From positions 3,596,001 through 3,660,000 of the forward strand of contig OY730173.1 in NCBI GenBank assembly GCA_963422465.1: a stretch of DNA of 64,000 nt, written 5' to 3'. Below are positions 1-51,124 of the stretch, one piece after another. The stretch's first letter is position 1. Every line of letters begins with the position of its first letter. Position numbers and translations under genes: made by a program. This DNA is from Lichina pygmaea. Lineage: Eukaryota; Ascomycota; Lichinomycetes; Lichinales; Lichinaceae. The notes beneath the pieces were generated by a model that did no database searches, had not been told where the DNA came from, and saw nothing but the letters and a program-made list of their open reading frames with translations.

Positions 1-346
1 CTTCGACTGAGGAGGGCAGGGACTCAATAGATGAATAGCAAGGGGGGTAACTCTCTTGCTATTGTCGCTCGTAATGTGTGTTCAGCCTGGAGAGCTATTC
101 TCTCTGGCTATCTGGGTTCTTATATACAGGAGCCTGAGGGGGGGGGGTCCTCCCAAGGGGTATCAGCTTTCTGCGTGGATAAGCTGGACGAGCTGGTTAC
201 ACGTCATCCACCTCGTCCACCGTGGACGAGCTGGACAAGCTGGTTACACATCGTCCACCTTGTCCACCGGGTCGGGTGAACATTGTTCCGTGTACCTCTG
301 TACACTCGCTTCAGTCGGCTCAGCCGTTCCGGCCTGGGCCTTAACA
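1..346 (-). repeat. Gy1 LTR, cut by the window start
   Basis: Reverse complement of the 391-bp LTRs at 9612-10002 and 15535-15925, including the G-run near 136-150, the TATATA stretch and the terminal CCTTAACA. The outer ~45 bp lie left of the window. It abuts Gy2 sequence at 347, whose first five bases (AGGCT) would be the target-site duplication. Whether it is a solo LTR or the edge of a full Gy1 element cannot be told here. Confidence 0.9.
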
Positions 347-8417: not shown

Positions 8418-9611
8418 GAACATCACTAAAGCAAAGGCCTCTGCTTCTACTCTGGGAACCAAGGTCACATCTCAACCTTCTGTCCAGTGAAAAGCATGTC
8501 TGTTGTTGCCACCACCACAACCACCACCAAGTCTGCCACTGTTGAGACTACTCCAGAGTCGGAAAACAAGTAGTCCTTGGTCATCATCATGCCCAAGGAC
8601 ATGAAAAGGATCTCTATGTTGGCTATCTGTCTCCAGACCAGTAATTGGACAGCAAGTGCTTGTTTCTTCCTTGTATCCTAGATGGGAAATTCAAGTGCAA
8701 TGCTGTTATTGACTCTGGCTGTTCAGTATTTGGCTGCATTGGTGCTTCCTTTGCGTAATCTCTTCACCAAGAACCTCTCCCCTACCCACGCACATTGTGA
8801 TTGTTTGATGGCAAGACATCACAAACTACACATCTCGCCAAGACAATCATGACCACAGCACATGGCATGCACCAGGAGGAAGTCTCTCTCTTTGTGTCTC
8901 CTGGTCTTCACTATGATGTGATTCTGGGGATGCTATGGCTCCAGAAGCACAGGCCACACATTGATTGGACAAACACCTCAATCATGTTCAAGTCAGATCA
9001 CTGCTGATCAGCATGCCTCAAGTCAAACAATAGCTATCTAATCTCTTTGGATCTTGAAGCCAAGACGTCTGCTGGAAAGTCTCAGGATCCCAAGCCCCTT
9101 TCTGCCATGCCAATCCCCATCAATGCTGCCACATTTTCTCTCCTTGCTGCCAAGCCAGATCACCAGGTGTTCAGTGTTTCTCTGAGAGATATTGAGCAGG
9201 TGTTGAAGCCAAAGAAGCATGTGGATCCTGCCACACTTCTCCCTGCTCAGTACCACAAGTTCCTGGACGTCTTCAGCAAGGATGACGCTGACAAGCTTCC
9301 TTCTCTACGCCCAGGAGTTGACTACAAGATCAAGATGGAACCAGGAACCCAGGCACTCTCTGGACCTCTGTACAGCATGAGCAGAGAAGAACTCGAAGTT
9401 CTCAAGAAGTACCTGACAGAGAACCTGAACAAGAGCTTCATTCAAGTATCTTCATCACCTGCTGCTGCACCAGTCCTCTTTGTCAAGAAGCCAGAAGGTG
9501 GATTGTGTTTCTGTGTAGACTACAGAGCACTCAACACTATCACCATCAAGAACTGTTACCCCCTGCCACTGATCCGGGAGATGTTGGACCAGCTTTGCAA
9601 AGCTGTGTGGT
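8418..9611 (+). pseudogene. pol: Gy3b protease and RT N-terminus
   Basis: Protease active-site motif I-D-S-G-C-S (~8708), then the G-M-L-W-L-Q-K-H region (~8925) typical of the retropepsin C-terminus, then from 9047 the RT fingers ending ...C-K-A-V-W at 9611, where Gy1a is inserted. Several stops lie between 8418 and 9040, including a TAA at ~8757 that Gy3a shares. The linker around 8500-8640 contains Thr- and Lys-rich sequence after the zinc knuckle. Confidence 0.8.
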
Positions 9612-10002
9612 TGTTAAGGCCCAGGCCGGAACGGCTGAGCCGACCGAAGCGAGTGTACAGAGGTACACAGAACAATGTTCACCCGACCCGGTGGACAAGG
9701 TGGATGATGTGTAACCAGCTCGTCCAGCTTGTCCACGGTGGACAAGGTGGACGACGTGTAACCAGCTTGTCCAGCTTGTCCACGCAGAAAGCTAATACCC
9801 CTTGGGAGAACCCCCCCCCCTCAGGCTCCTGTATATAAGAACCCAGATAGCCGGAGAGAATAGCTCTCCAGGCTGAACACACATTACGAGCGACAATAGC
9901 AAGAGAGTTACCCTACTTGCTATTCATCTATTGAGTCCCTGCCCTCCTCGGTCGAAGACAGGACCACCCACATTCTGTGTGAACGTGGACTGGCCGTTAA
10001 CA
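9612..10002 (+). repeat. Gy1a 5' LTR
   Basis: 391 bp, TGTTAAGG...GTTAACA. Imperfect repeats of TGGACAAGGTGGA and CCAGCTTGTCCA lie at ~9697-9785. A TATATAAG box sits at ~9833, downstream of a C-run that is one to two bases shorter or longer in other copies. Confidence 0.93.
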
Positions 10003-10040
10003 GTTTCAGCCTCTAACACATAGGACACCGGCTCAATACG

Positions 10041-11585
10041 ATGGCAGATCCACGCAGCCCTACCCCTTTGCAGGCAGGCCAAGCTTGGGCTGCGCCTCAG
10101 GCACAAGCCCAGGAACCACCTGTCCCTACCACCCTCACCTTACCTCCAAAGCCGTTGAAGGTAGGTACGCCGAAGAGGTACGATGGATCACAAGGGGGAT
10201 TGGAATTATTCTTCTCTCAGCTTGAGCTTTACTACAGATTCAACACCACACAATTCCCTACGGAACAGGAGAAGGTGCTGTTCGCAGCTTCCTACCTGGA
10301 CAGACCGGCATTTGCCTGGTTCAATGTCTACCTACAAGACTTCCTCGACAACAAGGAAGACCCCTCTAGCATGGAGACCACGACACGGCAGATCATTGGG
10401 AGATTCTCTACCTTCAAGACCCAGATGAAGAAGACCTTCGGGGTCATTGATGAAGAACAAGATGTGGAACAAAAGCTCCAAGCACTACGGCAGACAGGGT
10501 CAGCATCAGACTTTGCGGCGAAGTTCCAACAGTTGTCAGTGAGGACACAATGGGGAGACAGTGCCTTGATGGCACTATTCTACCAAGCTTTCAAGGAACA
10601 AGTCAAGGATGACATCGCACGAGGAGACTGACCCACCGACCTCAAGGATATGATTGACACAGCGGTACGCATCGACGACTGACAGTTCAAACAAGAACTC
10701 GAGAAGTGAGGCAAGCATGCAAGGCCATGGGGCAAAAAGACAGCGCCAGCACAAGACAAGTACAGCTTGACACCCATGGAGATTGATGCAACAACACCAC
10801 AGGCAACAAAGAAGAAAGAAACACAGAAGTGTTACAATTGCCAGAAGGTAGGACACCTCGCAGCCAACTGCCAAAGCAAGAAGAAGAAAGAAGGCAAGGG
10901 TAAGCAGTTGAATGCCACTGGCGCCTGGAAAGGCAAGGGCATTCAGGAGCCACTGAGGGCTCCCAGAGGCACGCTACCCATGAACCGGTCAGAAGCAACA
11001 CTCCTCAGACAGAAGGACAATCTCAGACAGCACATCAAAAAACTGGAGAACAATCTGCAGAGGTCACTGGAGGACCTGCACGCAACCCAAGACCAGATCG
11101 ATAAGGTTCATTGGGAGGATGACCTGATCTCTGAATTTGACACAACAGACTACGAGATTGACATAACCGGCATGCCACCAGTTCCCGAGACACCACTACT
11201 CCGACGACAGGATGCGACCTTGTCGGAGGACGGTGAAGCAAGAGTGACACGATGGGTGGACAACACCATCAGCATCTCACAGCCCCAAGACATCGCAGTG
11301 CAAGTGGACCTCCACCAGGCTACGACACCAGCCTGCGGACGTCCTTATTGGAAAGGATGCGAGGACCACCACTGCAAGAAACATCTCCTAGAGAAAAGGA
11401 GAAGGCACCACTTCCCTGGCCCAGAATACCACAAGAAAGCCTGGAGCATCAAGCACCAGCTAAGCCAACAAGGGAAAGAACACGATGATTGTGGAGAAGA
11501 CGCATGGGAGCTATGCTTCACTGAAAAATGCGAAAGACACGCAGCAGAACACCAGGCTCAGGGCCTTGGTTGTTCAAAAAACTAG
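10041..11585 (+). pseudogene. gag: Gy1a gag
   Basis: ATG at 10041, 39 bp after the LTR. The capsid-like region (retrotransposon gag) runs to ~10680 and a zinc knuckle C-Y-N-C-x4-H-x4-C lies at ~10831. Then come an acidic linker and two W-x2-C-x4-C-x2-H motifs (~11346 and ~11508). The frame is broken only by three TGA codons (10629, 10680, 10707), two of which recur in Gy1b. It ends at TAG 11583-11585, directly preceded by a slippery heptamer leading into pol. Confidence 0.88.
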
Positions 11586-11616
11586 CAGTGCTCTTCAAAT
11601 CCGGAGTCGGAAGAGT
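11576..11616 (+). other. -1 ribosomal frameshift signal at the Gy1a gag-pol junction
   Basis: The heptamer A-AAA-AAC (11576-11582) is in the gag frame immediately before the gag stop. Pol is open in the -1 frame across it, with an overlap of 11528-11585. A 7-nt spacer leads to a 7-bp stem GCTCTTC/GAAGAGT (11590-11596, 11610-11616) with a 13-nt loop. The same heptamer, spacer and stem (there with all Watson-Crick pairs) occur in Gy1b. Confidence 0.85.
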
Positions 11617-14600
11617 GGGCAAGACAACACTCCGGAGAGAAGGGGTCGAGCAGAGCCTTGACGCGACAGCCTGCAGTCCGCATTTTCGCATCAAGATGAG
11701 AGTCAACAGGCATCTGACAAACGCCATAATCAACTCTGGAGCTACTGGCAACTTCATGTCAGAAAGTTTTGCCAGGAAGCACAAGATCCCGACTCAGGAA
11801 AAAAGGAATCCATACCAACTAACAGTAGTGGACAGGACACCACTCTCCAACAACCAAGGACGAGTGACAAAGGAGACCAAGAACCTACGACTGTGTGTCG
11901 ACAGTACGACAATCAGATCAGAAGAATTCAACTTGGTCCAGATACCACATGAAGTTATATTGGGTCTTCCGTGGTTGGAAAGTCAAAACCCAAGGATCAA
12001 CTGGAAAAGAAGGCACCTAGTCTTTCTGAAGAGAAGTCTGGCAACTCGAGCAGAGCCAGAGAAAGTGAGAATCAAAGAGATCTTATATGCAGGGTGGAAG
12101 AAGCACCACCGGTGAGGGCAAGCCTATGTGGCTTGGATGAAGCCCCGAAACCATCAACTTTGCACCACGCATGACGCCGTGGGCGAGACTCAGGCACCGC
12201 AGCTGCCAAGTGAGTATAAAGACTACCAGGAGATGTTTGGTGAGGAAGTGGTTGTGACGCTACCAGAACACCAAGAGTGGGATCACGAAATTCTGCTGGA
12301 AGACAGAAAGAAACCCACACACAGCCCTATTTACACTCTATCAGCAAAAGAGCTTGAGGCCTTAAGAGATTACCTGGACGAGAACCTAGCGAAAGAGTTC
12401 ATAAGACCTTCAACATCACCAGCCGGATACCCGATATTGTTTGTGCCAAAGAAGGACAGCAAATTACGACTGTGCGTTGACTACCGGCAGCTTAATGTGA
12501 TCACGATTAAGAATCACTACCCACTACCGTTAATATTGGAAATCCAGGACTGAATCCAAGGAGCCAAGTGGTTTACCAAGTTCGACATCCGAGGCGCTTT
12601 CAACCTGGTTAGGATGAAAGATGGTGAAGAATAGAAGACAGCCTTTCGTACAAGGTACAGGCATTACGAGTATACTGTTATGCCATTCGGCCTTACGAAT
12701 GCACCGGTGACATTCCAATCACTTATTAACGCCATCCTCTGACAATACCTGGATATATTTGTTACCGCTTATATCAACGATGTCTTGGTTTACACCAATG
12801 GAACCCTGGAGGAGCACAGACAGCATGTCAAGAAGATCCTACATGGGCTCCAAGAAGCAGGAATGAGGTTACGCCTTGATAAGAGCGTCTTCCACGTGAA
12901 AGAAGTGGAATATTTGGGATTGATCCTGACGACAGAAGGAATCTGTATGGATGATACAAAAACCACGGCAGTACGAGACTGGCCAACACCCAAAAACCTC
13001 AAAGAAGTCCAATCCTTCCTGGGATTTGCGAACTTCTACTGACGATTCATCAAGGAGTACTCAAGGACAGCAGCACCCTTGACTGAACTAACAAAGAAGG
13101 AAGAAACCTTCACATGGGGGAACAGCCAAGAGAGAGTGTTCCAGGAGCTGAAAGAGAAGTTCACCTCCGCACCCATACTGGCATCATTTGATCCCGGACG
13201 GTGGATCATCATGGAGACGGATGCCTCGGACCAAGCACTTGGATCTTGCTTGTGTCAACCAGACACCAAAAACCGCCTACACCCTGTCGCATACTGATCA
13301 AGAAAGTTCTCTGGCCCAGAACTCAGGTACGATGTTCACGACAAGGAGTTGTTAGTGATTGTTGACGCATTCCAGGAGTGGAGACCTTACCTGGAAGGAG
13401 CAAAGTACACAGTGGATGTGTACTCAGACCACAAGAATTTGGCTTACTTCACGACGACAAAGAAGCTAAACAGACGACAAGTCTGATGGGCAGAGCTTTT
13501 AGCTTCATACAACTTCCAGATCTTCTATCGAAAAGGATCAGAAAACACACGAGCGGACGCGCTTAGCAGGCGGCCTGATATGACGACAGACGACACGACA
13601 GAAGAGCGCCCAATCCTTGTGACAAAAGGACAAACTCTGGTCTATGCTCAACCTCAGTTAGTGAAAACTGAAGAAATGGGTGCACTCCTGACCCTAGGCC
13701 ACAACGTTGCAGCCACGAACAAGGAAGAAGTGCCAGAGAGTGCACAAGAGGACGTGATTTGACAACATCATGATGGACCTCTACACAGACATCCTGGGCG
13801 AGACAAGACCCTGGAAAAGATCTGGAGACATTACCACTTCAACAGAATGAAGTGGAAAGTGACAGAATTTATTCGCAACTGCGAAGAGTGTGCGAAAAAC
13901 AAACCGTCACGCCACAAACCCTATGGAGAGAGTCAACAAATAGACCTCCCAGAAGTGGCTTGGGATACCATCACAATGGATTTTGTGGTGAAGCTGCCAA
14001 GGTCAGAGGACCCAGTAACAAAGGTGAAATATGACAGTATCTTGGTGGTTGTTGACAAACTCACCAAATACGCTCACCTGATCCTGTGGTGAGAGACAGG
14101 AACAGCGAGCGAACTCGCCAATGTCCTGCTCAAAGAATTGGTTAGCCAGCGAGGGCTACCCACGAAGATTATCTCGGATCAAGACAAACTCTTCACCTTG
14201 AAATTCTGGAACACGTGGACAAGACAGCTAGGGATAGACACGAGGATGTCTACTGCCTACCATCCACAAACAGACGGACAAACTGAGAGAACAAACCAGA
14301 CGATGGAACAGTACCTACGCCACTACATCAACCACTGACAGGACGATTGGGTAGAACTGCTACCAATGGCTCAGTTTGCGTACAACGATCAGCAACACAG
14401 CGTGATGGGCATGACGCTGTTCTTTGCGAACTACAGCAGAAACCCCCACTGGGAAGCAATGGCGGCTGGAAGTGGCACTTCAACGAACGTCGAAAAACTC
14501 ACTGCTATGCATGAGGAAATGAAGACTGCAATTGAATCCACACAAAAGACAACAAGCCACCGCCTAAACAGTAAAAGGTTGAAGGGACCAACCCTGGAGA

Positions 14601-15097
14601 GGGGGGATAAGGTCTATTTGTCAACAAAAAACCTGCGCTCGAAGCGACCAAGCAAAAAGCTGGATCACGTATGAATCAGACTGTTTGAGATTGAGAAGCG
14701 CACTGGAGAAGTCAACTACTGACTGAGACTGCCAAAAAAAGCATGGATACACCGAGTATTCCATGTCTCGCTGCTTGAGCCAGCACCCAGCAACGCAGCA
14801 ACCGAAACAGAATGGCACTTCGAGGACGATGAAGAAGGGTACGATGTCGAAAGGATCCTAGACAGCCGGAGAAGTGGACGGAAAATCGAATACCTGGTCA
14901 AGTGGTTAGGGTATGACAATGAGGAGAACTCGTGGGAACCCACCGAGAACTTCAGCCCTGCGACAAACAAGAAACTGCGGAGTTTCCACCGACAAAACCC
15001 GCAGAAGCCAGGATCGATGGAGACAAAGACTCGAGAGAAGCCAAAGCCTCCGAAGAGAAGAAGTCCTCCAAAGGTGGCGGGGACTCCACACGCGTAG
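11583..15097 (+). pseudogene. pol: Gy1a pol (protease, RT, RNase H, integrase, chromodomain)
   Basis: One continuous -1 frame with no indel. Protease N-S-G-A-T-G (~11733; the catalytic Asp is Asn here and in Gy1b). RT with Y-I-N-D (~12770; Y-I-D-D in Gy1b). RNase H with E-T-D-A-S-D (~13215). Integrase zinc region (~13790-13900) and D,D,E core (~13977-14300), then a chromodomain-like end (~14820-14990). Twelve in-frame stops: TGA at 12113, 12551, 12740, 13040, 13295, 13484, 13760, 14090, 14336, 14672 and 14720, and TAG at 12632. Its last ~146 nt overlap the antisense ORF. Confidence 0.9.
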
Positions 15098-15482
15098 CCT
15101 CCTGCTTGAGATTCTCCTGATCCTCGATCGCAGCAAGCTCACACTTGATGGCCTCACCCTCCTTCTTGGACAACACACCCAACTGACGACAGAGACAAAG
15201 TTTGCGAGGAAGGAGAACAGACTCCTGCTCCTCGATCTCCTTCAGTTGAGCCTTGAGCTGAGTGTGCTCAAGCTCCATCTTCTCCCACTCCGACTCCGCA
15301 AGATGGAGATCACAACAGCGACCCTTCTCAAGGCACTGACTGCAAAATGTGGACTCTGAACTGACGACACACTTGGCACAGTCACGACAACATGCGCTGC
15401 ATGAAACTTTGGATACCTTGCCCATCTTGCCAACACGAGAACCGAGGACTCCACGACAATTAACACAAGATGTCCGGGTCAT
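14952..15482 (-). CDS. Antisense Zn2Cys6-like protein of Gy1a (176 aa)
   Basis: Intact ORF on the strand opposite gag-pol, lying between the pol end and the 3' LTR; its start is 52 bp from the LTR. After a C-x2-C pair near the N-terminus, residues ~29-54 hold C-x2-C-x6-C-x8-C-x2-C-x6-C, the spacing of a fungal Zn(II)2Cys6 cluster. Then follows a charged helical segment (S-E-W-E-K-M-E-L...), then a C-terminal F-F-S-S-E-A-L-A-S-L-E motif. Gy1b encodes a homologue with the same cysteine spacing. Similar Cys-rich hypothetical proteins are, from memory, common in fungal genomes. DNA binding is inferred from spacing only; a structural or RNA-binding zinc finger is possible. Confidence 0.72.
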   Translation of the reverse strand: MTRTSCVNCRGVLGSRVGKMGKVSKVSCSACCRDCAKCVVSSESTFCSQCLEKGRCCDLHLAESEWEKMELEHTQLKAQLKEIEEQESVLLPRKLCLCRQLGVLSKKEGEAIKCELAAIEDQENLKQEATRVESPPPLEDFFSSEALASLESLSPSILASAGFVGGNSAVSCLSQG

Positions 15483-15534
15483 GGTAAGAGAAGCGAGAGG
15501 ATCTGGGGACAGAACCTTTGGAAGGAGGGGATGG

Positions 15535-15925
15535 TGTTAAGGCCCAGGCCGGAACGGCTGAGCCAACCGAAGTGAGTGTACAGAGGTACACGGAACAATG
15601 TTCACCCGACCCGGTGGATGAGGTGGATGATGTGTAACCAGCTCGTCCAGCTTGTCCACAGTGGACGAGGTGGACGACGTGTAACCAGCTTGTCCAGCTT
15701 GTCCACGCAGAAAGCTGATACCCCTCGGGAGGACCCCCCCCCCTCAGGCTCCTGTATATAAGAACCCAGATAGCCGGAGAGAATAGCTCTCCAGGCTGAA
15801 CGCACATTACGAGCGATAATAGCAAGAGAGTTACCCCACTTGCTATTCATCTATTGAGTCCCTGCCCTCCTCGGTCGAAGACAGGACCACCCACATTCTG
15901 TGTGAACATGGACTGGCCTTTAACA
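15535..15925 (+). repeat. Gy1a 3' LTR
   Basis: 391 bp, near-identical to the 5' LTR, with mainly transition differences. The central TATATA is close to palindromic (TGTATATAAG read one way, TTATATACAG the other), so it could serve antisense transcription toward 15482, about 270 bp away, as well as sense transcription. Confidence 0.93.
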
Positions 15926-18652
15926 GTGGTACACCAAGATTGACATTGTTGGTGCCTTCAACCATATCCAGATGAAGGAAGGTGAAGAATGGAAGACTGT
16001 GTTCCGCACACACTCAGGCCTCTACGAATACCTTGTCATGCCCTTTGGTCTTGCCAATGCTCCAAGCATGTTCCAGAACTACATCAATGATGTTTTGGGA
16101 CCTGACATCCTTGACGTCTTTGGCACTGCCTATGTGGATGACATCCTTATCTACAGTCAGACACTCAAGGAACACTGGAAGCATGTCAAGCTTGTTCTCA
16201 GTCAACTACAAGATGCAAGCCTGCAAGTTGACATCTCCAAGTGTGACTTTGAAGTGCATCAAGTCAAGTACCTTAGCCTCATCATTCAGTCTGCCACTGA
16301 AGACAGCCGACCGGGATCTGTGAGCATGGACCTAGCCAAGACTGACGCCATCAAGAAGTGGAAGCCTCCTGCCAGTCTCAAGGAAGTGCAGAGCTTCATT
16401 GCCTTTGCAAACTTCTACCACTGGTTTATCAAAGACTTTGCCAAGCTTACATCCATGCTCACAGCTCTGACCAAGAAGAATGTTGCCTTCAAGTGGGAAA
16501 CCACAGAGCAGTGCTTGTTTGAAAGTATCAAGAAGGTCTTCAGCACTGCACCCATCCTGCAGCACTTTGATCTGGAGAAGGAGTGTGTTGTTGAGACTGA
16601 CACTTCTGACTACATCTCTGGTGCTGTCCTGTCACAGCCAGACCATGAAGGAGTTCTACACCCTGTTGCCTTCTTGTCACACTGCCACCTGCCAGCAGAA
16701 TGCAACTACAAGATCTACAACAAAGAGTTGCTGGCAATTGTCTGTGCCTTTGAAGAATGGCAAGCAGAGCTTGAAGGATCTCCAGAGTCTGTCAAGGTGA
16801 TCTCTGATCACAAGAACTTGGAGTACTTCATGTTGTCAAAGCGCCTTTCCCACTGTCAAGTCTGTTGGAGCGAGTTCTTGTCACACTTCAATTTCAAGAT
16901 CAGCTACCATCCAGGCAGTCAGTGCAAGGCCAACACCCTCACTTGATGTTCCCAAGACCTCCTGTCAGACAGTGATCCCTGTCAAGACTTCATGGAGCAA
17001 GTTGTCCTCAAGCCCAAGAATCTTGCACATTCAGAGGTTCAAGTCAAGCCTATCCAGATCCTGAGACGTTCAGAAGCTGCACCAGTTGACACTGAACCTG
17101 ATGCTACACTTCTTTCAGACACCATCCAAGCTGCCTATAACAACCTTGCTGAAGGTGATCCAGTGGCAACAGTGTCACAGATGCTAAGGGATAGTGTCAG
17201 GCACAGTCAAGAAGTGTCTCTCTCAGACTGCAGCTTAGAAAATAACTATCTCTTCTACAAGAACCAACTCTGGATCCCTGAGAATGATGAGCTACACCTA
17301 CACCTGTTCCAAGAAGCTCATGACCAAGCAATGGCTGGCCACACTGGGATTGCCAAGACCCACAATCTCCTGTCTTGTTGGTACTATTGGCCAAAGATAG
17401 TGAACATCATACAGTAGTACATCAGGATTGTCATGTCTGCTCTCAAGCAAAGCCTGCCTGTGATCACCAAGGAGAGCTGCTGTCTCTTCCTGTGCCTCAG
17501 CAATGTTGGCAGGATCTGGCTATGGATTTCATTACTGACTTGCCCAAGTCAAGAGATGTCTGCTTCCCTGGTGCCAAGCACATCTGGGTCATCACTGACT
17601 GTCTCACCAAAGAATACCACTTTGTGCTATTTGCTGAGATAACAACCTCGCATCTTGTCCGGATGTTCATCCAGTTTGTTGTCTGTACCCATGGCTTGCC
17701 CAGGAGCATTGTCTCAGACAGAGGAGGTCAGTTTGTCAGCTCATTCTGGAAAGCACTCTGTGCCCATCTCAACGTCATGCTACGACTATCCTCAGGACAC
17801 CACCCAGAGACAGATGGTCAGACAGAACAAGAGAATCAGGAGCTTGAACACTACCTGAGATTCTATGTCAACTATCTCCAAGATGACTGGGTCCAATGGC
17901 TTCCTCTGGCAGAGTTCACACAGAACAACTCCCAGTCTGATTCCTCTGGCATGTCACTGTTCTTTGCCAACAAAGGGTTCCATCCACAGCTCAGCATCAC
18001 ACCCACAAGTGAAGTCTGCAATCAAGATGCTATGGAAATCTCTGGAGAAATGACACAGATTCTGGAACAGTTACAGGCTGAACTCTGACTATCCCAGGAA
18101 GCTCAAGCTCACGCTGCCAATTTGCATCAAGTCCTGTCACTGTCCTATCAAACTGGAGATCTTGTTTGGCTGAATACCAAGAACATCAGGACACGCCACC
18201 CATGCAAAAAGCTTGACAACAAGTGGATTGGACTATTCAAGGTGTTAAAGACAGTCGGAAGCTGTGCCTGCCATCTGGAGCTTCCACACACTCTCAAGAT
18301 CTACCCTGTCTTTCATGTTTCCCTTCTACGTCTGACACCTGCTAATCCTATCCCTGGCCAATCAAATGAACACTCTGGCCCTGTCATTAGTCAAGACACA
18401 GATGAAGAGTTCCAGGTTGAAGAAATCCTTGACTCCAAGCTAGCAACATCTTGACAGAAGTTCAAGTACCTGGTCAAATAGTCTGGATGGCCAATTGAAG
18501 ATGCCACTGAAGAGTCTATTGAGCATCTTGACAACACCAAAGACGCCATCTACAACTTCCATGACAAATACCCAAGGAAACCACAGCCACAGAATTACAC
18601 CCACAAGCGGCCTGAGGCTCACAGGAGTTTGCCATGTGAAGGAGGGGGGTAA
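15926..18652 (+). pseudogene. pol: Gy3b RT C-half, RNase H, integrase, chromodomain
   Basis: Continues the RT cut at 9611. Y-V-D-D (~16132), E-T-D-T-S-D RNase H (~16591), then a TGA after A-N-T-L-T (16944-16946). Integrase zinc region (~17300-17440, with a frame change near 17400-17430), catalytic core with D-F-I-T-D (~17524), S-D-R-G-G-Q (~17715) and the Glu region (~17830). A chromodomain-like tail runs to G-G-G at ~18650. The stop at 18086-18088 is TGA where Gy3c has CGA (28752-28754). A TAG at ~18479 replaces the TGG seen in Gy3c. Confidence 0.87.
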
Positions 18653-20926: not shown

Positions 20927-21193
20927 TGTGACAAGGCAATGGCAGAGCAGAACTCAAGTCTAACTGATTCGGTAACCTTGACCTGACTTGGCTTGAGACT
21001 TGAGACATGGATTGATGTACAAGACGAAAGACAAGGAAGGAAAAGAGAAAAGAAGAAGAGAAGAAGCTGGGGGAGTAGGAGAAGTTCTTATAGGCAGGGG
21101 ATACAGCAGAGCAAACAGGCAACAGTGCAGATGGAACTTCCCGGCAAGGTGCATGACTTGTGCCAGATATGCAACTGGGCCAGAACTGTGACA
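20927..21193 (-). repeat. Gy3a 5' LTR
   Basis: 267 bp, reverse orientation (TGTGACAAGG...CTGTGACA). Its outer flank is AAATC (21194-21198), but the other LTR of Gy3a is not in the window, so the duplication cannot be confirmed. It sits in the middle of a Gy2-type antisense ORF. Confidence 0.9.
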
Positions 21194-21580
21194 AAATCCT
21201 CACTATCTGACTCTATCTTTTTCACTAGACACTGAAGTTTCTGCTTCACACAACTCTCAGTCTTTTCCAACATCTTCCACTTTTGAGAAATACAGGACTG
21301 TATCACAGCAAGCTGTTCAAGAAGTGTATTCTGTTTTGTCTTATCAGCAGCCAGACCTTCATGAAAGCTATCCTGGGCTATGTTCAGGGAATCCCAGGAT
21401 AGAGAGACACAAGACTTCCCACAATAAGTGCACTCAGCACACTTCACTTTGCTGCTTTCTTCCAGTATTTAGAAACACAGTTGACCACAGAGAACACAGA
21501 GGTCACAGGGAATAGGTGACACAAAGTTCTGATTGCAGATCTGAGTAGTAAGCTGCTTTCAGCTAACAGTTGCACATGAC
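21194..21580 (-). pseudogene. Decayed antisense Zn2Cys6-like ORF (Gy2-type, third copy)
   Basis: The minus strand encodes a relative of the Gy2a and Gy2b antisense proteins: C-x2-C-x6-C-x11-C-x2-C-x6-C, then S-W-D-S-L-N and the helical L-E-Q-L-A-V region, cut at E-S-D-S-E-D-F by the Gy3a LTR. Two stops interrupt it, one at the serine-arginine codon of the N-terminus and one just after the third Cys. The cysteine spacing is still fully conserved. The rest of its parent element is not adjacent. Confidence 0.75.
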
Positions 21581-21759
21581 TTTTATTTTTATTTTATTTA
21601 TTTGATTCTTACACTGATAGTAGATTTTCAGCCACGCAGATCTTCTAGCTAAGAGTGATTTTCTTCAGAAAACCTTTAGAGGAATAAAAACTGAAGACTG
21701 GGGGTGACTAGAGGATGTAGCAAAAGGAAATCTTGTAGTGACTGGTAGAAAGAAAACTT

Positions 21760-37318: not shown

Positions 37319-38199
37319 AAGATGTCTTGACAGATTATCACACAAGTCAGCATCACATGTGTATTAGGCAACCTCCTACACATAATAGAAAGCAGAATAA
37401 GGTGCTTTTTGTAGGACAAGACACAGAATAAGACACCTGTCACACAATAGCAAGCACAATAAGGCATCTGGCTATTCTATCCCAATGTCTAGATAGTTTT
37501 TTTTTCATCAGTCAGCAACTGATAGTTACTATTCAACATTCTATAGATAATAGAGGACATCCCAATAGTGAGAACCTGTCTGGCAGAGTCAGGTGTGTGT
37601 TGCTTAGCCTACTGTAATTGATAGCTATCATCTAGATGTTTTTTTGACTAGTAGCTGCTATCTTCTGAGTGCCTACTACAAGACATCTAGATGCCACTTA
37701 TCACCTGATGGCAGCTGGCAACTAGCTTTCCTTAGTATGGAACTGACTTCATCTGATAGTTTTGATAGTGCCCAATAGTGTAAATAACAGTGTTTTTTTA
37801 CTTTGGTATCCCAGGTGTCCTGGGCACCCTACACCACAATATGTAAATTCTGTTTTTGCTGATGAACATAGAGCTGTTTCTACAAAGAATGTTCTCTACT
37901 ATTACAAAGTAGAAGATCATTGAGGTTACTTCTACAGTGTGGGTAAACATTTCTCAAGCTTATCTAGATTTATTGATTAAGTTGATACCTTGTTATATCA
38001 AGACTGTCATCAAAGCTCAGAGGTAGTATACAAAGTACTAATTCTACCACTGCTTATTCTCAAGACTATTGTTAGCCCCACCAAATCCTACATAGCTTTG
38101 CTAAGTCAACAAGTACTCAGTTCAATTTTGCCTGGTAACAGGAACTGGAGAGTGCACTCAAACATTCACAATCTAACTGTAGGATGGCAAGAGAGAAGG
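37319..38199. other. Anonymous A/T-rich DNA, no gene seen
   Basis: 881 bp between Gy4 and the Gy1b target site. Homopolymer runs and short repeats (TAGATG, AATAAGGCA) occur, with no ORF, RNA or TE motif that I recognise. It is contiguous with 50855 onward once Gy1b is removed, so it belongs to the NOP10 upstream region. Confidence 0.6.
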
Positions 38200-38556
38200 T
38201 GTTAAAGGCCGGGCCGGGTTCACACAGAAGGTGGCTCAGTCTGTTGCTTTGTGGGGCGGATTCTAGACAGGGACTCGGTAGAGGAATAGACAGGTGGGGT
38301 AACTCTCCTGTGCTATTGTCTCAGTACGATGAGTTTGTATTGTGTGTTCAGCCTGGAGAGCTAATCCCTCCGGGCCCTTTGGGGGGTCTTTATACAGATG
38401 CCCCAAGAGGGGGGGTCTCCTTGAGGGGTATCATCCTTTTGTGTGGACAAGCTCCTCGCTTAGCTTCTGCTCGTCCACCGGATCAGTCGGATGTTGTTCC
38501 GCATGACTAACACTCCTCCCTCGCTTACCTGGGCTGTTCTGGCCTAGGCCTTAACA
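38200..38556 (-). repeat. Gy1b 3' LTR
   Basis: 357 bp, TGTTAAAGG...CCTTAACA, with a G-run and CTTTATACAG at ~38386-38396 oriented toward the antisense ORF. Confidence 0.93.
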
Positions 38557-38617
38557 CTATCCCCTCCCTCCAAGAGTTCTGTCCCCAGATCCTTTTTGTT
38601 CCTGCTCCTCTTTTGTC

Positions 38618-39190
38618 ATGAACCAAAGCCAGACAACTTGAACTTGTCGTCGTGGTTTTCTTTCTTGTCGTATTGGCAAAATAGGCAAGGAATCGAAAAT
38701 CGCATGCGGTGCTTGTTGTCGCAACCACGCCCAGTGTGTTGTGAGCTCCACATCATCTTTTTGTTGTCGGTGTGTTGAGAAGGGTTGTCGCTGCAACCTT
38801 CATCTCTCGGAATCAGAATGGAAGAAGATGGAACTTGAGCGTGAGCAGCTCAAGACTCAGTTGTGGGAGACTGATGACCAATTGTCAAAGTTGCTTCCCT
38901 GGCAGATCTGCCTCCGCTGGCAGCTGGGTCATCTCTCACAGAAGAAGGCTGATACCATCTGTCGTGAGCTGTCCGCCATCAAGGATCAGGAATCCCTTGA
39001 TGCTCAGGAACAGGAGGCTCTCCGCGTTATCTGCGAACAGGAGGCCAGTCAGGCTGCTGCTCCACTGTCCTTTGAGGACATCTTCTCTTCAGAGGCTTTG
39101 GCTTCTCTCGAGCTGTTGTCTCTGTCAGACCTGGTCGCTGTGGGTTTGCTTGGTGGTAATCCACCAGCTTCTGGTTCATCGCAGAGCTGA
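38618..39190 (+). pseudogene. Antisense Zn2Cys6-like ORF of Gy1b, one early stop
   Basis: Homologue of the Gy1a antisense protein. ATG at 38618 and a TGA at codon 8 (38639-38641), where the Gy1a frame has no stop; the frame is then open to 39190. It keeps C-x2-C-x6-C-x8-C-x2-C-x6-C, the S-E-S-E-W-K-K-M-E-L helix and F-S-S-E-A-L-A-S-L-E near the C-terminus. Its last 164 nt overlap the end of pol on the other strand. Conservation despite clear sequence divergence argues for selection on this frame. Confidence 0.72.
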
Positions 39191-39980
39191 AGTTTTCAGT
39201 TAGTTCCCACAAATTCTCCTCTTCGTCAAATTCTAACCACTTCACCAGGTACTCAGTTTTCTGTCTGTTTCTTCGACTATCCAGGATTCTTTCAACATCG
39301 TACTCTTCTTTGTCATCCTTGAAGTTCCATTCTGTCTTGATTTCTGTGTTGCTGGGTGCTGGTTCAAGCAGCAAGACATGGAATACTCAGTGTATCCTTG
39401 CTTTTTGTGGTAGTCTCAGTCGATAGTTGACCTTCCCAGTACACTTCTCAATTTTGAATGGTCTGATTCGTACATGATCCAGCTTTTTGCTTGGTCGCTT
39501 TGAGCGCAGGTTTTTTGTTGATAGGTAGACCTTATCCCCCCTTTCCAGGGTTGGTCCCTTCAACCTTTTGTCATGTAGTCAGCGGGCGGTGGTGTTCTGG
39601 GCACAGTCAATTGTTGTTTTCATTATCTCGTGCATAGCAGCAAGTTTGCTAACATCAACAACATTGCCTTCTGCTGTTGCCTGCCATCAGGGGTTTCTTC
39701 TGTAGTTCGCAAAGAATAGTGTTGTCCCTGTCACACTATGTTGCTGGTCATTGTACGCAAACTGGGCTATTGGTAGCAGTTCCACCCAGTTATCCTGCTG
39801 GTGGTTGACGTAGTGTTGTAGATACTGCTCCATTGTCTGGTTTGTCCACTCAGTTTGTCTGTCAGTTTGTGGGTGGTAGGCTGTTGACATCCTTGTATCA
39901 ATGCCAAGTTGCCTTGTCCACGTGTTCCAGAATTTCAAGGTGAAGAGTTTGTCTTGATCTGAGATAATTGTCTTTGGTAG
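39027..39980 (-). pseudogene. pol: Gy1b integrase C-terminus and chromodomain
   Basis: The minus strand encodes the integrase core end (I-I-S-D-Q-D-K-L at ~39950, the T-D-R-Q-T-E region at ~39850) and the chromodomain-like Y-L-V-K-W-L-E-F-D (~39240), ending near 39027. Several in-frame stops. Joined to 46523 before the insertion of Gy2a. Confidence 0.87.
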
Positions 39981-40580
39981 TGTTACGACCCAGGGATGGG
40001 AGCCACTCATTTATAGGCAATCAGGCCACGGGCCAGGCAAGAGGACACCATGGAAGTCAAGTGACCAACCAACAAGGGGTCACGTGACTGTCGAGACACA
40101 CACGGAAGTCTTGACACATGATGCATGAAGCATCAAGACAATCTCACCAGTCTTGAAGCAGGGTGCATGAAGCATCAAGACAATCTCACCCGTCTTGACG
40201 CAGGATGCATGAAGCATCGAGACAATCTCACCTGTCTCGACGCAGGGTGCATAACATAGTGGGACTGTCAAGACAATCTCACCTGTCTCGACGTCGAGAC
40301 TGTCAAGACAATCTTGATTGTCTTGACAGGCCAGCACTATATAGTCCGGTGATAGTTCCCTTATGGAACGATCGTCTTCAACTCATGTTGTGATCCAGAC
40401 AACTAGATCTACTTCAATACAATCCTTTTGTACGAAGCCGTTGATCAGGTGTCACCACCACCACGTTCCACCAAACCCCTTCGCACTCCTTGACACTCCT
40501 CTCCTGTGAGAACCAACCCGCCTTCCACCTCTCGCCCTAATCCTATACTCGGATAGGACAGTACGGTACAGACCGCAACA
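39981..40580 (+). repeat. Gy2a 5' LTR
   Basis: TGTTACGACC...CCGCAACA. It holds about four imperfect ~42-bp units (40110-40300), then a palindrome TGTCAAGACAAT-CTTG-ATTGTCTTGACA (40301-40328) immediately before the TATA motif CTATATAG (~40337). Near its outer edge ATTTATAGGC gives a TATAAAT box on the opposite strand. Confidence 0.93.
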
Positions 40581-45436: not shown

Positions 45437-45878
45437 ACAGCTCGGCCTGCAGCGCGGACGCATCAATGACTGTCATCGACAAGTCTTCACCATCCGCCTC
45501 CATTTCAGCAACAAGGCACTGGAGCTTCTTCTTTGCTCGACCCTCAGCACCCTCAAGAACCTTTCGCTTTCAGGACACACGAGTCTGCAGCTCGGCAAGC
45601 TGCTCAACAAGAGCATCCCGCTTGGCCTCATCAACAGCCAAATCCTCGCGAAGGTTATCCCGAGTCATGTTCAGCGACTCCCAAGAAAGTGACACACAGG
45701 ACTTTCCCCGATGAGTGCACTCAGCGCACTTCAACTTATTGTTGTTGTCAGACATTCGGAAGCAGAGCTTGTGGTTCAAAACACAGAAGTCACACGGAGC
45801 AAGCGACACAAAGTTATGATCACAGATCTGGGCTGCCAGTTGGTTTCGGTAAGCAGAGGCACGTGATTTTGCAGACAT
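45378..45878 (-). pseudogene. Antisense Zn2Cys6-like ORF of Gy2a (166 codons, one TGA)
   Basis: ATG at 45876-45878, stop at 45378-45380. Exactly the same length (501 nt) as in Gy2b, with one internal TGA at 45570-45572 (codon 103) where Gy2b has CAG. Residues ~27-57 contain C-x2-C-x6-C-x11-C-x2-C-x6-C. Then S-W-E-S-L-N and a charged helical region. The last 59 nt overlap the end of pol. A TATAAAT box lies 79 bp upstream within the LTR. Function unknown; a transcription-factor-like or anti-silencing role is inference. Confidence 0.72.
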
Positions 45879-45922
45879 ACTCAAGAATTCATCGGGACGA
45901 TGAATGAAGGAGAGGAGGGTAG

Positions 45923-46522
45923 TGTTACGACCCAGGGATGGGAGCCACTCATTTATAGGCAATCAGACCGCGGGCCAGGCAAGAGGACACCATGGAAGTC
46001 AAGTGACCAACCAACAAGGGGTCACGTGACTGTCGAGACACACACGGGAGTCTTGACGCATGATGCATGAAGCATCAAGACAATCTCACCAGTCTTGACG
46101 CAGGGTGCATGAAGCATCGAGACAATCTCACCCGTCTCGACGCAGGATGCATGAAGCATCAAGACAATCTCACCCGTCTTGACGCAGGGTGCATAACATG
46201 GTGGGACCATCGAGACAATCTCACCCGTCTCGACGTCAAGACTGTCAAGACAATCTCGATCGTCTCGACAGGCCAGCACTATATAGTCCGGCGATAGTTC
46301 CCTTATGGAACAATCGTCTTCAACTCATGTTGTGATCCAGACAACTAGATCTACTTCAATACAATCCTTTTGTACGAAGCCGTTGATCAGGTGTCACCAC
46401 CACCACGTTCCACCAAACCCCTTCGCACTCCTTGACACTCCTCTCCTGCGAGAACCAACCCGCCTTCCACCTCTCGCCCTAATCCTATACTCGGATAGGA
46501 CGGTACGGTACGGACCGCAACA
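45923..46522 (+). repeat. Gy2a 3' LTR
   Basis: 600 bp, near-identical to the 5' LTR with mostly transition differences; tandem units at ~46052-46190 and TATA motif CTATATAG at ~46280. Confidence 0.93.
45951..45957 (-). promoter_or_regulatory. Antisense TATA box in the Gy2a 3' LTR
   Basis: Minus strand TATAAAT, 79 bp before the antisense ATG; Gy2b has TATATAAAG at nearly the same distance (77 bp). The equivalent site in the 5' LTR would drive transcription out of the element. Confidence 0.5.
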
Positions 46523-49098
46523 GGTAGCCCTCGGTGGCTTACCAGCTCTCTGAGTAGGACACTCGCAAGTTTGTTCGTGGTTCCTGACTCTTTCCACAGG
46601 ACCAGGTGGGCATATTTGGTGAGCTTGTCAACAACCACCAAAATGCTATCGTATACCACCTTTGTTGCTGGGTCTGTTGACTTTGGCAACTTGACCACGA
46701 AATCCATCGTGATAGTTTCCCATGGTACCTTGGGTAGGTCTATTTGCTGTGCCTGCCCATAGGGCTTATGTCTTGATGGCTTGTTCTTCGCGCGCTGTTC
46801 GCAGTTGCGGATGAACTCTGTCACTTTACGCTTCATTCTGTCAAAGTGGTAATTCCTTTGGATTTTCTCCAAGGTTTTATCTTGCCCAGGGTGTCTGTGC
46901 AAAGGCCTGTCATGGTGCCTCCGGATCACCTCCTCTTGTGCTCTTTCTGGCACAATTTCCTTTTTGTTTGCCATCTTGTGGCCAAGGGTAAGGAGTGGAC
47001 TCTTTGTTTCTGTTGTTGCCAGTTGGGGTTGGGCATAGACCAGGGTTTGTTCTTTTGTTGCTAGGATTGGGTGTTCCTCTGTTGTTTTCTCATCCATCAG
47101 GTCTGGTCGCCTGCTGAGTGTGTCCGCTCAAGTATTTTCAGTGCTCTTCCAGTAGAGGATTTGGAAGTTGTATGATGCCAACAACTCTGCCTATCGAACT
47201 TGTCGTTGGTTTAGCTTCTTTGTTGTTGTGAAGTAAGCTAAGTTCTTGTGGTCTGAGTACACGTCTACCATGTATTTTGCCCCCTCCAAGTAAGACCTCT
47301 ATTCTTGGAATACGTCGACGATTGCTAGCAACTCTTTGTCGTGAACATCGTACCTCAGTTCTGGGCCAGAGAACTTTCTTGATCAGTACGCGACAGGGTG
47401 TAAGTGGTTGTCAGCGTCTGGTTGACACAAGCAGGATCCCAATGCTTGGTCTGAGGCATCAGTTTCCAGAATGATTCTCTTCTCAGGATCAAATGATGCC
47501 AAAATGGGTGCGGAGATGAATTTATCCTTCAACTCCTGGAAGGCCACTTGTTGGCTCTCCCCCCACCTGAAAGATTTGTTCTTTCTGGTTAACTCTGTCA
47601 AGGCTGCTGCTGTTCTTGAGTAGTCCTTGATGAATTGTTGGTAGAAGTTTGCAAATCCTAGGAAGGATTGTACTTCTTTGAGGTTTTTGGGTGTTGGCCA
47701 GTCTCGTACTGCTGCCATCTTTGTGTCGTCTATTCGGATTCCTTCTGTTGTCAGGATCAACCCCAAATATTCCACTTCTTTTGTGTGGAAAACACTTTTA
47801 TCAAGGTGTAACCTCATGCCTGCTTTCCGGAGCACATGTAGGATTGTTTTGACATGCTGTTTATACTCCTCCAAGGTTCCATTGGTGTATACCAAGACAT
47901 CATCAATATAAGCGGTGACAAATATATCCAGGTATTGTCGGAGGACAGTGTTAATAAGTGATTGGAATGTCGCCGGTGCATTCGTAAGGCAGAATGGCAT
48001 CACAGTATACTTGTAGTGCCTGTACCTCGTACGAAAGACTGTCTTCCATTCCTCGCCATCTTTCATCCTAACCAGGTTGAAAGCATCTTGAATGTCAAAC
48101 TTGGTGAACTATTTGGCTCCTTAGATCCGGTCTTGGATTTCCAATATCAGTGGCAGTGGGTAGCAGTTCTTCACCGTAATCACATTTAGCTGCTGGTAAT
48201 CAACACACAGTCGAAGTTTGCTGTCTTTCTTTGGCACAAACAATATTGGGTATCCAGCTGGTGATGTTGAAGGTCTTATGAACTCTTTCGCTAGGTTCTT
48301 GTCCAGGTAGTCTCTCAGGGCCTCAAGCTCTTTTGCTGACAGAGTGTAGATAGGGCTGTGTGTGGGTTTTTTTCTGTCTTGCAGCGGAATCTTGTGGTCC
48401 CACTCCTGATGTTCCGGTAGCGTCACGATCACTGTTTCTTCGAACATCTCCTGGTATTCTTTATACTCACTTGGCAACTGCGGTGCCTGAGTCTCACCCA
48501 CGGCGTCTTGCGTGGTGCAAAGTTGTTGTGTTCGGGGTTTCATCCAGGCCACACAGGCCTGCCCGTGCTGGTGGTATTTCTTCCAGCGTGTCAGTGAGAT
48601 TTCTTTAATCATCACCCCTGGTTCTGACATGACCAGTGTCTTATCTGGAAAGACTAGTTACCTTCTTCTCCAGTCAATCCTTGGGTTTTGTTTTTCCAAC
48701 CACGGAAGTCCCAATATAACTTCATGTGGTATCCAGACCAAGTCAAATTCCTCTGTTCCGATCATCATGCTATGGACACTCAGTCTCAGGCTCTTGGTCT
48801 CCTTCGTCACTTGTCCCTTGTCTTTGGAGAGTGGTGTTCTGTCCACCACTGTCAACTGGTAGGGGTCTCTCTTGCCTTGGACTGGAACCTTGTTTCTTCT
48901 GGCAAAGCTTTCTGACATGAAGTTGCCAGTCGCACCAGAGTTGATCATGGCCTTAGCCAACCGCCTATTGACTCTGATCTTGATGCGAAAGTGCGGGCTG
49001 CATGCTGTTGCGTCAAGGCTTGGCTTGACTCCTTCCTCCCAGGGTGTTGTCTTGCCTGCTCTTCCAACCCCGGTTTTGAAGAGCGCTGCTAGTTTTTT
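46523..49098 (-). pseudogene. pol: Gy1b pol 5' part: protease, RT, RNase H, integrase N-half
   Basis: The minus strand encodes protease N-S-G-A-T-G (~48940), RT with Y-I-D-D (~47900), RNase H (~47440), then the integrase zinc region and first half of the core up to the Gy2a insertion. Stops include TGA at ~47383 (shared with Gy1a 13295), TAA at ~48120 and TAG at ~47190. It begins after the frameshift signal at 49092-49098. Confidence 0.88.
49058..49098 (-). other. -1 ribosomal frameshift signal at the Gy1b gag-pol junction
   Basis: Minus strand A-AAA-AAC (49098-49092) followed directly by the gag TAG, a 7-nt spacer, then a perfect 7-bp stem GCTCTTC/GAAGAGC (49084-49078, 49064-49058) with a 13-nt loop. 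Identical layout to Gy1a; the G-T pair there is G-C here. Confidence 0.85.
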
Positions 49099-50459
49099 GA
49101 GCCACCTAGGCCCTGGGCCTGACGCTCTACCGTGTGTCGTTTGCATCGTGTGGTGAGGCATCGTTCCCACAGGTCTTGGTTGCAATCATCAGCAATATCT
49201 CTGACCTGTGTGATGCTGAGGGTATCGTCAACCCATCGTGACACTTGTGTCTCCCCTATTTCTGATAGGGTTGCGTCCTGTTGTCGAAGGACAGGTTTGT
49301 TGGGGACTGGTGGTGGCTGGGGTTCTTCGTCATCAACCTGTTCCTCCATATAGCCGGTTGTGTCAAACTCGGAGATCAGGTCGTCCTCCCAGTGGATTCT
49401 GTCGACCTTCCTTCAGACCTTGTCAAGGCAGTCCAAGGTTTCTTGTAGCATGTTCTTGAGTTTTTCGGCATGTTGTCGGAGGTCGTCCTCCTCTCTGAGG
49501 AGTACTGCCTCAGGGTGATTGTAGGGCAGTGTGCCTTGGGGGGCCCTCTGGGGCTCCTCCATCTTCCTGCCTTTCCAGGCGCTCGTGGTGTTCAACTGCT
49601 TCCCTTTGCCCTTCTTGTTCTTCTTCTTGCTCCTGCAGTTCACCGCAAGGTGGCCCACTTTCTGACAGTTGTAACACTTCTGTGTCTCCTTCTTTTGTAG
49701 TTCCACCGCATCAATTTCCATGAGTACCAAGCTGTAGTTATCTTTGGCAGGTGTTGGCTTTTTCTTCACCCATAGTTTCATCTGCTTGCCTCGCTTCTCA
49801 AGCTCTCTCTTGAACTGTCAGTTGTCGATGCGAGCTGCAGTCTCAATCATTTCGTAGAGCTCGGTTGGTCAGTCTCCTCACGCAATGTCATTCTTGACTT
49901 GTTCCTTAAGGCCTTGGTAGAATAGTGCTATTAGTGCACTGTCCCCCCACTGAGTCCTCACTGCTAGTTGTTGGAACTTCGCCGCAAATTCCGATGCCGA
50001 TCCAGTTTGCCGCAGTGCTTGGAGCTTTTGTTCTGCATCCCTTTCCTTGTCAAGAATCCCAAACATCTTCCTCATGGCTGTCTTAAAGGTTTTCAAGCTT
50101 CCCATGACCTGTCAGGTATTGTCTTATTGCTCCTTGGGGTCTGCCTGATTGTCTAGGTAATCTCTTAAGTAGATGTTGAACTAAGCGAAGGCTGGTCCTT
50201 CCAGGTAGGAGGCTGCAAACAGCACCTTCTCCTGGTCTGTCGGGAACTGGGCTGTGTTGAACCTATAGTAGAGCTCCAGTTGTGAGAAGAACAACTCCAG
50301 TCCTCCCCTGGATCTATTGTACCTCTTCAGGGCACCTACCTTCAAGGGCTTCAGGGGTAGGTTAACAATAGGTGCTGCCTGGACAGCCTGGGCCTGAGCC
50401 GCCTGAGCAGCCTGGGCTTGGGCTGCCTGAGAAGGGGTAGGGCTTCGTGGATCCACCAT
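49089..50459 (-). pseudogene. gag: Gy1b gag
   Basis: ATG at 50457-50459 after a 38-bp leader shared with Gy1a. Ala/Gln-rich N-terminus, capsid-like region (~49880-50330), zinc knuckle C-Y-N-C-x4-H-x4-C (~49670), an acidic linker and one W-x2-C-x4-C-x2-H motif (~49160). TGA at ~49818 and ~49870 match Gy1a TGA codons at 10680 and 10629. Confidence 0.87.
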
Positions 50460-50497
50460 CGTATCGAGTCAGTGTCCTATGTGTTAGAGGCTGAAAC

Positions 50498-50854
50498 TGT
50501 TAAAGGCCGGGCCGGGTTCACACAGAAGGTGGCTCGGTCTGTTGCTTCGCGGGGTGGATTCTAGACAGGGACTCGGTAGAGGAATAGACAGGTGGGGTAA
50601 CTCTCCTGTGCTATTGTCTTAGTACGATGGGTTTGTATTGTGTGTTCAGCCTGGAGAGCTAATCCCTCCGGGCCCTTTGGGGGGTCTTTATACAGATGCC
50701 CCAAGGGGGGGGGTCTCCTTGAGGGGTATCATCCTTTTGCGTGGACGAGCTCCTCGCTTAGCTCCTGCTCGTCCACCGGATCGGTCGGATGTTGTTCCAC
50801 ATGACTAACACTCCTCCCTCGCTTACCTGGGCTGTTCCGGCCTAGGCCTTAACA
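50498..50854 (-). repeat. Gy1b 5' LTR
   Basis: 357 bp. It lies only 270 bp upstream of the NOP10 start codon. The plus-strand TTTATACAG (50687-50695), the motif that faces the antisense ORF in the other LTR, here points toward NOP10. Confidence 0.93.
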
Positions 50855-51124
50855 GAAGGGAGTCAGATCTTATAGTGATGACATACAAGTGGGGTGGGAA
50901 GTGAAGCGAGAAGCTTTGCCCAAAGCGGCAGTGGCTTAGCCACAAGAGGCAGTTCGCAGGTACGCTCTTAACTTGCTGTACATACTGGTACGTACTATAC
51001 GAGATCCAGTCAATCCAGCGGACCTATCCAAACCCCACGAACCCCGGCCATACCCTACCGCAAAAGCCCGCCGCAGAGACCCCAGCGCACAAGCTTCACC
51101 CCACAATCCTCGCCGCAGAACAGC
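50855..51124 (+). promoter_or_regulatory. NOP10 upstream region
   Basis: 270 bp between the Gy1b LTR and the NOP10 ATG. Purine-rich, then C/A-rich near the start codon, as in many fungal 5' leaders. No clear TATA box. The original upstream DNA continues at 38199 leftward, so the element has displaced distal promoter sequence by 12.6 kb. Confidence 0.55.

Follow-up and report, generated by a model that had tools for sequence, protein, structure and literature searches.

What is the open reading frame that lies antisense to a retrotransposon, between its pol gene and its 3' LTR, and could the element make use of a protein encoded there? The question is raised by Gy1a, a chromodomain Ty3/gypsy element in the 64-kb stretch of DNA that we analyzed as a whole (the window), which is crowded with nested repeats. 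The parts of Gy1a are as follows.

9607-15930, plus strand: Gy1a element (TSD and LTR pair)
9612-10002, plus strand: 5' LTR (TSD GTGGT at 9607-9611)
10041-11585, plus strand: gag, broken, in a frame different from that of pol (PF03732, PF19259)
11528-15097, plus strand: pol, with a chromodomain at its C-terminal end (PF00385, E 1e-15)
15520-15534, plus strand: putative polypurine tract between the start of the antisense gene and the 3' LTR, judged from the sequence
15535-15925, plus strand: 3' LTR (TSD GTGGT at 15926-15930)

The overlap of gag and pol in differing frames (11528-11585) suggests a programmed frameshift. Pol contains 12 premature stops (11 TGA and one TAG) and its own stop at 15095-15097. 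A seemingly intact NOB1 gene, with PIN and Zn-ribbon domains, sits amid the repeats of the window (51831-53216, minus strand).

A sequence-only reading of the window had reported a 176-aa frame with a zinc-cluster-like arrangement of cysteines in Gy1a, and its position, length, and strand are exact. We call this antisense protein gene ASP; it shares 146 nt with the 3' end of pol.

14952-15482, minus strand: ASP of Gy1a, 176 aa (open reading frame; at least 150 scored genomic copies; selection)
15312-15401, minus strand: Zn(II)2Cys6-type cluster, C-2-C-6-C-8-C-2-C-6-C (pattern; PF00172 on less-decayed copies; AlphaFold2 and Foldseek)
15087-15296, minus strand: predicted long coiled-coil helix, residues 63-132 (AlphaFold2; heptad periodicity)
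14955-15098, minus strand: acidic/hydrophobic tail at the C-terminus, residues 129-176, which overlaps the 3' end of pol (charge)

The cysteine spacing is real. A six-frame scan of the 64 kb for C-2-C-6-C-5..12-C-2-C-6..8-C found four sites, every one an ASP frame, whereas 100 dinucleotide-preserving shuffles of the window gave no match. The ASPs of Gy1, of a sister lineage of Gy1, and of the Gy2a and Gy2b elements all have this six-cysteine spacing. In less-decayed Gy1 copies the cluster reads CSACRRDRAKCVVSSESTFCGRCLEKGRRC, with basic loops like those of true zinc clusters; CSACRRDRAKC-X8-CGRCLEKGRRC, the form found in these copies, is a classic Zn(II)2Cys6 motif that includes basic residues. 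The other ASPs of the window are listed below.

21193-21582, minus strand: decayed remnant of a Gy2-type ASP; several stops, one within the cluster (cysteines kept)
38618-39190, plus strand: ASP of the Gy1 sister-lineage element ('Gy1b'), with one early stop (six-cysteine pattern)
45477-45878, minus strand: ASP of Gy2a, with one internal TGA; cluster at 45696-45794 (pattern with X11)
58863-59267, plus strand: ASP of Gy2b, 134 aa; cluster at 58947-59045 (pattern with X11)

The earlier statement that these copies share the cysteine pattern holds for Gy2a and Gy2b; the remnant at 21.2 kb keeps the cysteines but is interrupted within the cluster. 'Gy1b' also has the pattern. It is a single element of the sister lineage, at approximately 38195-39976 plus 46217-50870, that has been split by the insertion of Gy2a. 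TGA codons shorten the Gy2 ASP frames of the window, and less-decayed copies encode 166 aa in Gy2b and no fewer than 152 aa in Gy2a.

In the host genome (32.5 Mb, 8 contigs), whose genes mark it as fungal, at least 150 genomic copies of the Gy1 ASP family (282 candidates) and at least 150 of the Gy2 ASP family (503 candidates) were scored, both counts being lower bounds. Decay of these copies is dominated by CpG-type changes, which make up 798 of the 1074 ASP differences from one reference copy (L045) among Gy1 copies. The six cluster cysteines are retained in 59-61 of 61 Gy1 copies. At several other positions where the window copy has cysteine, many or most copies have arginine, because CpG decay turns the arginine codons CGT and CGC into the cysteine codons TGT and TGC. 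The same decay bears on the argument that ASP stays open while pol beside it holds 12 stops. The stops are there, but the contrast proves little because Gy1 ASP, unlike pol with its many, has no CGA codon that decay could make into TGA, and we did not take the open frame as a sign of selection. Old Gy1-like ASP copies (L062-L070) are nearly free of CpG (0-9 vs 43 in the freshest copy) and offer a natural clock for decay. Three loci for C5 DNA methyltransferases are present in the host (C4:1525480, C7:1329739, and C6:2989554), which fits CpG-directed decay of the elements.

Selection was measured by dN/dS between the least-decayed copies of different lineages, the comparison of Gy1 with its sister lineage covering the 127 codons outside the pol overlap. 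Between Gy1 and the sister lineage, dS is about 1 and dN about 0.2, and dN/dS is 0.18-0.21 (Fisher p 6e-11 to 1e-12); between Gy2a and Gy2b, dN/dS is 0.09-0.13 (Fisher p 8e-18 to 1e-20). These ratios, far from the value near 1 that would have spoken against a protein, are the same after codons with CpG-explainable differences are dropped. In a six-frame control, the other frames gave higher values (pN/pS of 0.53-2.3 for Gy1 and dN/dS of 0.22-2.1 for Gy2), the lowest coming from the reverse frame that mirrors the third positions of ASP and has stops inside. With dN/dS at about 0.1-0.2 and other frames higher, the ASP protein is kept by purifying selection. The zinc cluster is the best-conserved part of Gy1 ASP (pN 0.11) but not of the Gy2a/Gy2b ASPs (pN 0.21 vs 0.14 in the coiled coil).

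What kind of protein is being kept? The Zn_clus profile (PF00172) is the family most often matched by Gy1-type ASPs, at residues 27-58 in 18 of 21, but below the gathering cut-off of 21 bits (15.7-16.6 bits among the matches listed; best E 0.005). A Pfam search with the window copy of Gy1a ASP gave no zinc-cluster match, which we attribute to decay, and the profile matched none of the Gy2 ASPs. The fungal six-cysteine domain DUF3716 (PF12511) weakly matches Gy2 ASP (E 0.08). It occurs at 14 genomic places (e.g. C3:4782557), several of them broken by stops; the one that was read (L137) has no gypsy pol frame alongside, and we do not claim a link to Gy2 ASP. Searching the PDB by sequence with ASP found nothing, and scans of IMG/VR with the Gy1 and Gy2 ASP alignments found no relatives.

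Structure prediction is likewise suggestive of a zinc cluster in Gy1 but does not extend it to Gy2. An AlphaFold2 model of Gy1 ASP, made without templates, has two short helices within the cluster, at residues 29-33 and 48-53, and a long helix at residues 63-132 (pLDDT mostly about 90). Compared with the PDB by Foldseek, 17 of its 19 matches, all with E of at least 0.09, are zinc-cluster transcription factors, among them Put3, Pho7, Leu3, Gal4, Ppr1, Hap1, Lac9, and AlcR. The remaining two are structures of the yeast kinetochore, including CBF3, of which the zinc-cluster protein Cep3 is a component. VIA gave Z 3.0 to GAL4 (4.4 Å over 41 residues) and Z 2.8 to LAC9 (2.0 Å over 33 residues). The model of Gy2 ASP has a helix at residues 66-128 but a poor cluster region, and its only Foldseek match in the PDB is meaningless, with no zinc-cluster protein found, a result that does not exclude the fold. 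The putative homology of Gy1 and Gy2 ASPs has its support in an hhalign alignment with the cysteines in register (E 0.017, probability 2.6%). Heptad periodicity is significant in both (p 0.005 for Gy1 and p 0.01 for Gy2) and, together with the long predicted helix, bears out the helical segment that had been noted after the cluster, now predicted to be a dimer-type coiled coil. The first 60 residues of Gy1 ASP carry a net charge of +12, and the tail is acidic. Sequence and model together support the view that Gy1 ASP combines a Zn(II)2Cys6-type cluster with a coiled coil. It would then be expected to bind zinc and DNA, and its tail might resemble an activation domain.

ASP has the cysteine spacing and basic loop of Gal4, Put3, Leu3, Ppr1, and Hap1, a predicted coiled coil comes after the cluster as in these factors, and the predicted fold of Gy1 ASP yields matches to them (E of at least 0.09). 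It differs from these factors in being encoded by a retrotransposon in antisense, in falling below the Pfam cut-off, and in its length of 166-190 aa, which has no room for a middle homology region.

If ASP binds DNA, where might its sites be? The U3 regions of these elements contain tandem arrays with inverted half-sites, and two of the 3' LTRs contain an antisense TATA box.

9689-9784, unstranded: U3 array in the Gy1a 5' LTR, with the same 47-bp unit as in the 3' LTR (TRF)
15614-15706, unstranded: U3 tandem array in the Gy1a 3' LTR, 47-bp unit, inverted TGGACGA/TCGTCCA half-sites (TRF; inverted repeats vs shuffles; motif density)
46049-46194, unstranded, with a second copy at 40107-40252: U3 tandem array of Gy2a, 42-bp unit, inverted GTCTCGA/TCGAGAC half-sites (TRF; motif density)
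58430-58674, unstranded: U3 tandem array of Gy2b, 50-bp unit, GTGAGC/GCTCAC half-sites (TRF; motif density)
45951-45957, minus strand: antisense TATA box of Gy2a within the 3' LTR (TATAAAT at -79/-80 relative to the ASP start codon, 13 of 13 copies)
58786-58792, plus strand: antisense TATA box of Gy2b within the 3' LTR (TATATAA at -77 relative to the ASP start codon, 30 of 30 copies)

Half-sites per kb number 11.3 in Gy1 and 8.4 in the sister lineage for TGGACGA, 17.4 in Gy2b for GTGAGCA, and 35 in Gy2a for GTCTYGA, over a background of 0.15-0.5; each is practically absent from the other lineages. Inverted 7-mers in U3 are mostly above shuffles (e.g. 15 vs 1.1), and the number of array units differs among copies. 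Both Gy2 TATA boxes face ASP from just inside the LTR edge, in U3s that are otherwise barely alignable, whereas Gy1 has no TATA at the matching place upstream of ASP. A palindrome, GTCACGTGAC, is also common to these dissimilar Gy2 U3s and lies between the antisense TATA box and the array in both (Gy2b copy L107; Gy2a at 45918-46262 of the window).

The arrays look like candidate binding sites for ASP, and U3 would then be its target, although they could serve host factors instead. Gy1 and its sister lineage have the same half-site and a near-identical loop between the second and third cysteines (RRDRAK and RRDHAK); between Gy2a and Gy2b, both the half-site and the loop differ (VLNHKP and VLRGRP). 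With so few lineages, this joint change of loop and half-site is only suggestive.

ASP and U3 also appear to have a history apart from the rest of the element. In one sister-lineage element (L074), gag-pol differs from that of Gy1a at 0-3% of non-CpG sites across 3.4 kb, with a dS of 0.10 in the pol tail, whereas ASP and U3 have diverged by 23-25%. Gy2a and Gy2b differ by 1-4% in gag-pol, 4-16% in the pol tail, 24-29% in ASP, 35-45% in U3, and 2-10% in R-U5. Gy1a and 'Gy1b' alone show no mosaic, with a divergence of about 9-33% throughout; the mosaic emerges with the common copies of the sister lineage. Selection on the protein cannot account for a tenfold gap in synonymous divergence, and the simplest reading is therefore that the segment from ASP through the polypurine tract to U3 has been exchanged as a block between elements. 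Template switching could be the route, with breakpoints at the R jump and near the end of pol. One copy (L087) that combines the common sister-lineage ASP and U3 with the pol tail of a more diverged subtype (compared with L074, L083, and L089) is a further recombinant near the pol end. ASP stays with its own type of U3 in 82 of 82 copies examined, but linkage alone could hold the two together because only about 55 bp separate them.

We therefore return to the suggestion that the frame encodes a regulator. ASP is probably an accessory Gal4-type regulator encoded by chromodomain Ty3/gypsy elements and acting on their own bidirectional LTR, a reading that best fits a coiled-coil protein of the Zn(II)2Cys6 type, under purifying selection and adjoining candidate binding arrays. 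Its mRNA would most likely begin at the outer margin of the 3' LTR, from the TATA box that lies some 30-40 bp within the LTR in Gy2 and from a TATA-less promoter in Gy1. The protein would have the layout of Gal4-type fungal factors, that is, an N-terminal basic stretch with the cluster, a dimerizing coiled coil, and an acidic tail. As a dimer, it could bind the palindromic half-sites in U3, between the outward antisense promoter and the sense promoter, and from there control gag-pol together with its own transcription. Antisense transcription would take place, and ASP may activate rather than repress. When elements recombine, ASP and U3 would move jointly as a cassette. A more tentative proposal, possible but somewhat short of probable, is that this cassette of a Gal4-type factor and the U3 array it recognizes co-evolves to new half-sites and is swapped as a unit between elements sharing gag-pol. 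Such a cassette would be the fungal equivalent of VANC, by which each family could control its own promoter privately or escape silencing there.

Among the alternatives, the likeliest is that ASP is a VANC-like anti-silencing factor, which would bind the U3 arrays and, within its own family, remove or block heterochromatin or the methylation of CpG. We consider it rather unlikely. For ordinary activation, the zinc cluster, the coiled coil, and the acidic tail are enough, and VANC is not known to be a zinc-cluster protein. Anti-silencing would be, moreover, a subset of the regulator reading and not its opposite. The host methyltransferase loci and the mainly CpG decay are nonetheless consistent with methylated elements. 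The design is also alike: VANC proteins of Arabidopsis VANDAL transposons bind short motifs that have multiplied into tandem repeats in the noncoding DNA of the transposon itself and co-evolve with the protein (PMC5735166). ASP, too, is an element-encoded protein accompanied by tandem motifs in the element's own noncoding DNA that differ between families, its binding to them being putative, but VANDALs are DNA transposons and the proteins have no detected relation.

It is unlikely that ASP is a repressor or copy-number limiter, its expression in antisense from the 3' LTR damping sense transcription, in a place like that of HTLV-1 HBZ. HBZ is a DNA-binding dimer, and ASP is a small protein predicted to be the same. 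The position and promoter logic correspond as well: HBZ is read from an antisense promoter in the 3' LTR (cited in PMC7264820). HBZ differs in being a bZIP and not a zinc-cluster protein, and in belonging to an infectious retrovirus. Against repression, the ASP-bearing families grew to hundreds of copies, and the acidic tail is conserved, though partly through the pol overlap.

ASP might instead act post-transcriptionally, as an integration-targeting helper, a zinc-binding nucleic-acid chaperone, or an aid to nuclear import. Chromodomain elements target heterochromatin. Plant antisense genes occupy the same place, and at least one of their proteins is nuclear, according to the account of them in PMC7264820. 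Such roles are nevertheless quite improbable, as Gag has its own CCHC knuckle in its sequence, and such roles explain neither the lineage-specific palindromic arrays of U3 nor the combination of Zn2Cys6 spacing and dimer coil. Antisense lncRNAs do arise from Ty3 elements in fungi (PMC10648671), but the notion that the transcript is the regulator and the frame incidental is very improbable, being largely refuted by a dN/dS of 0.1-0.2 that is specific to the ASP frame outside the pol overlap and by the six conserved cysteines.

The regulator reading must finally be set against known elements. The arrangement had been thought undescribed, and in this respect the sequence-only reading was mistaken. 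The antisense architecture is not new because Boty-like Ty3/gypsy elements of Botrytis cinerea have brtn, an antisense gene, in the corresponding position (Zhao et al. 2011 Virology 417:248, cited in PMC7264820, PMC8365987, and PMC4227169), as Ty3/gypsy elements of plants have the antisense aORF-3R genes (Grande gene23, RIRE2, Retand, and PvRetro13; PMC7264820). We compared brtn through the descriptions in the citing papers, whose passages on it make no claim of a zinc cluster or a U3 array. The plant genes resemble ASP in place and orientation, and that of Grande has its own promoter and a nuclear protein; in the section of PMC7264820 that treats them, a zinc cluster is not described and no clear similarities are reported for the proteins. 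A literature search found no paper that links an antisense gene of a retrotransposon to a zinc cluster, within a coverage that excludes most subscription journals. What appears to be new is the zinc-cluster protein together with cognate-looking U3 arrays.

Overall, a 2020 review still called the function of the antisense accessory genes of LTR retrotransposons unknown. In ASP, a recognizable DNA-binding architecture, measurable selection, and adjoining candidate sites make that question directly testable. If the regulator reading is true, selfish elements encode a private Gal4-type regulator of their own, and the swapping of regulator-plus-promoter cassettes would explain how families built on one gag-pol backbone diversify in their control.
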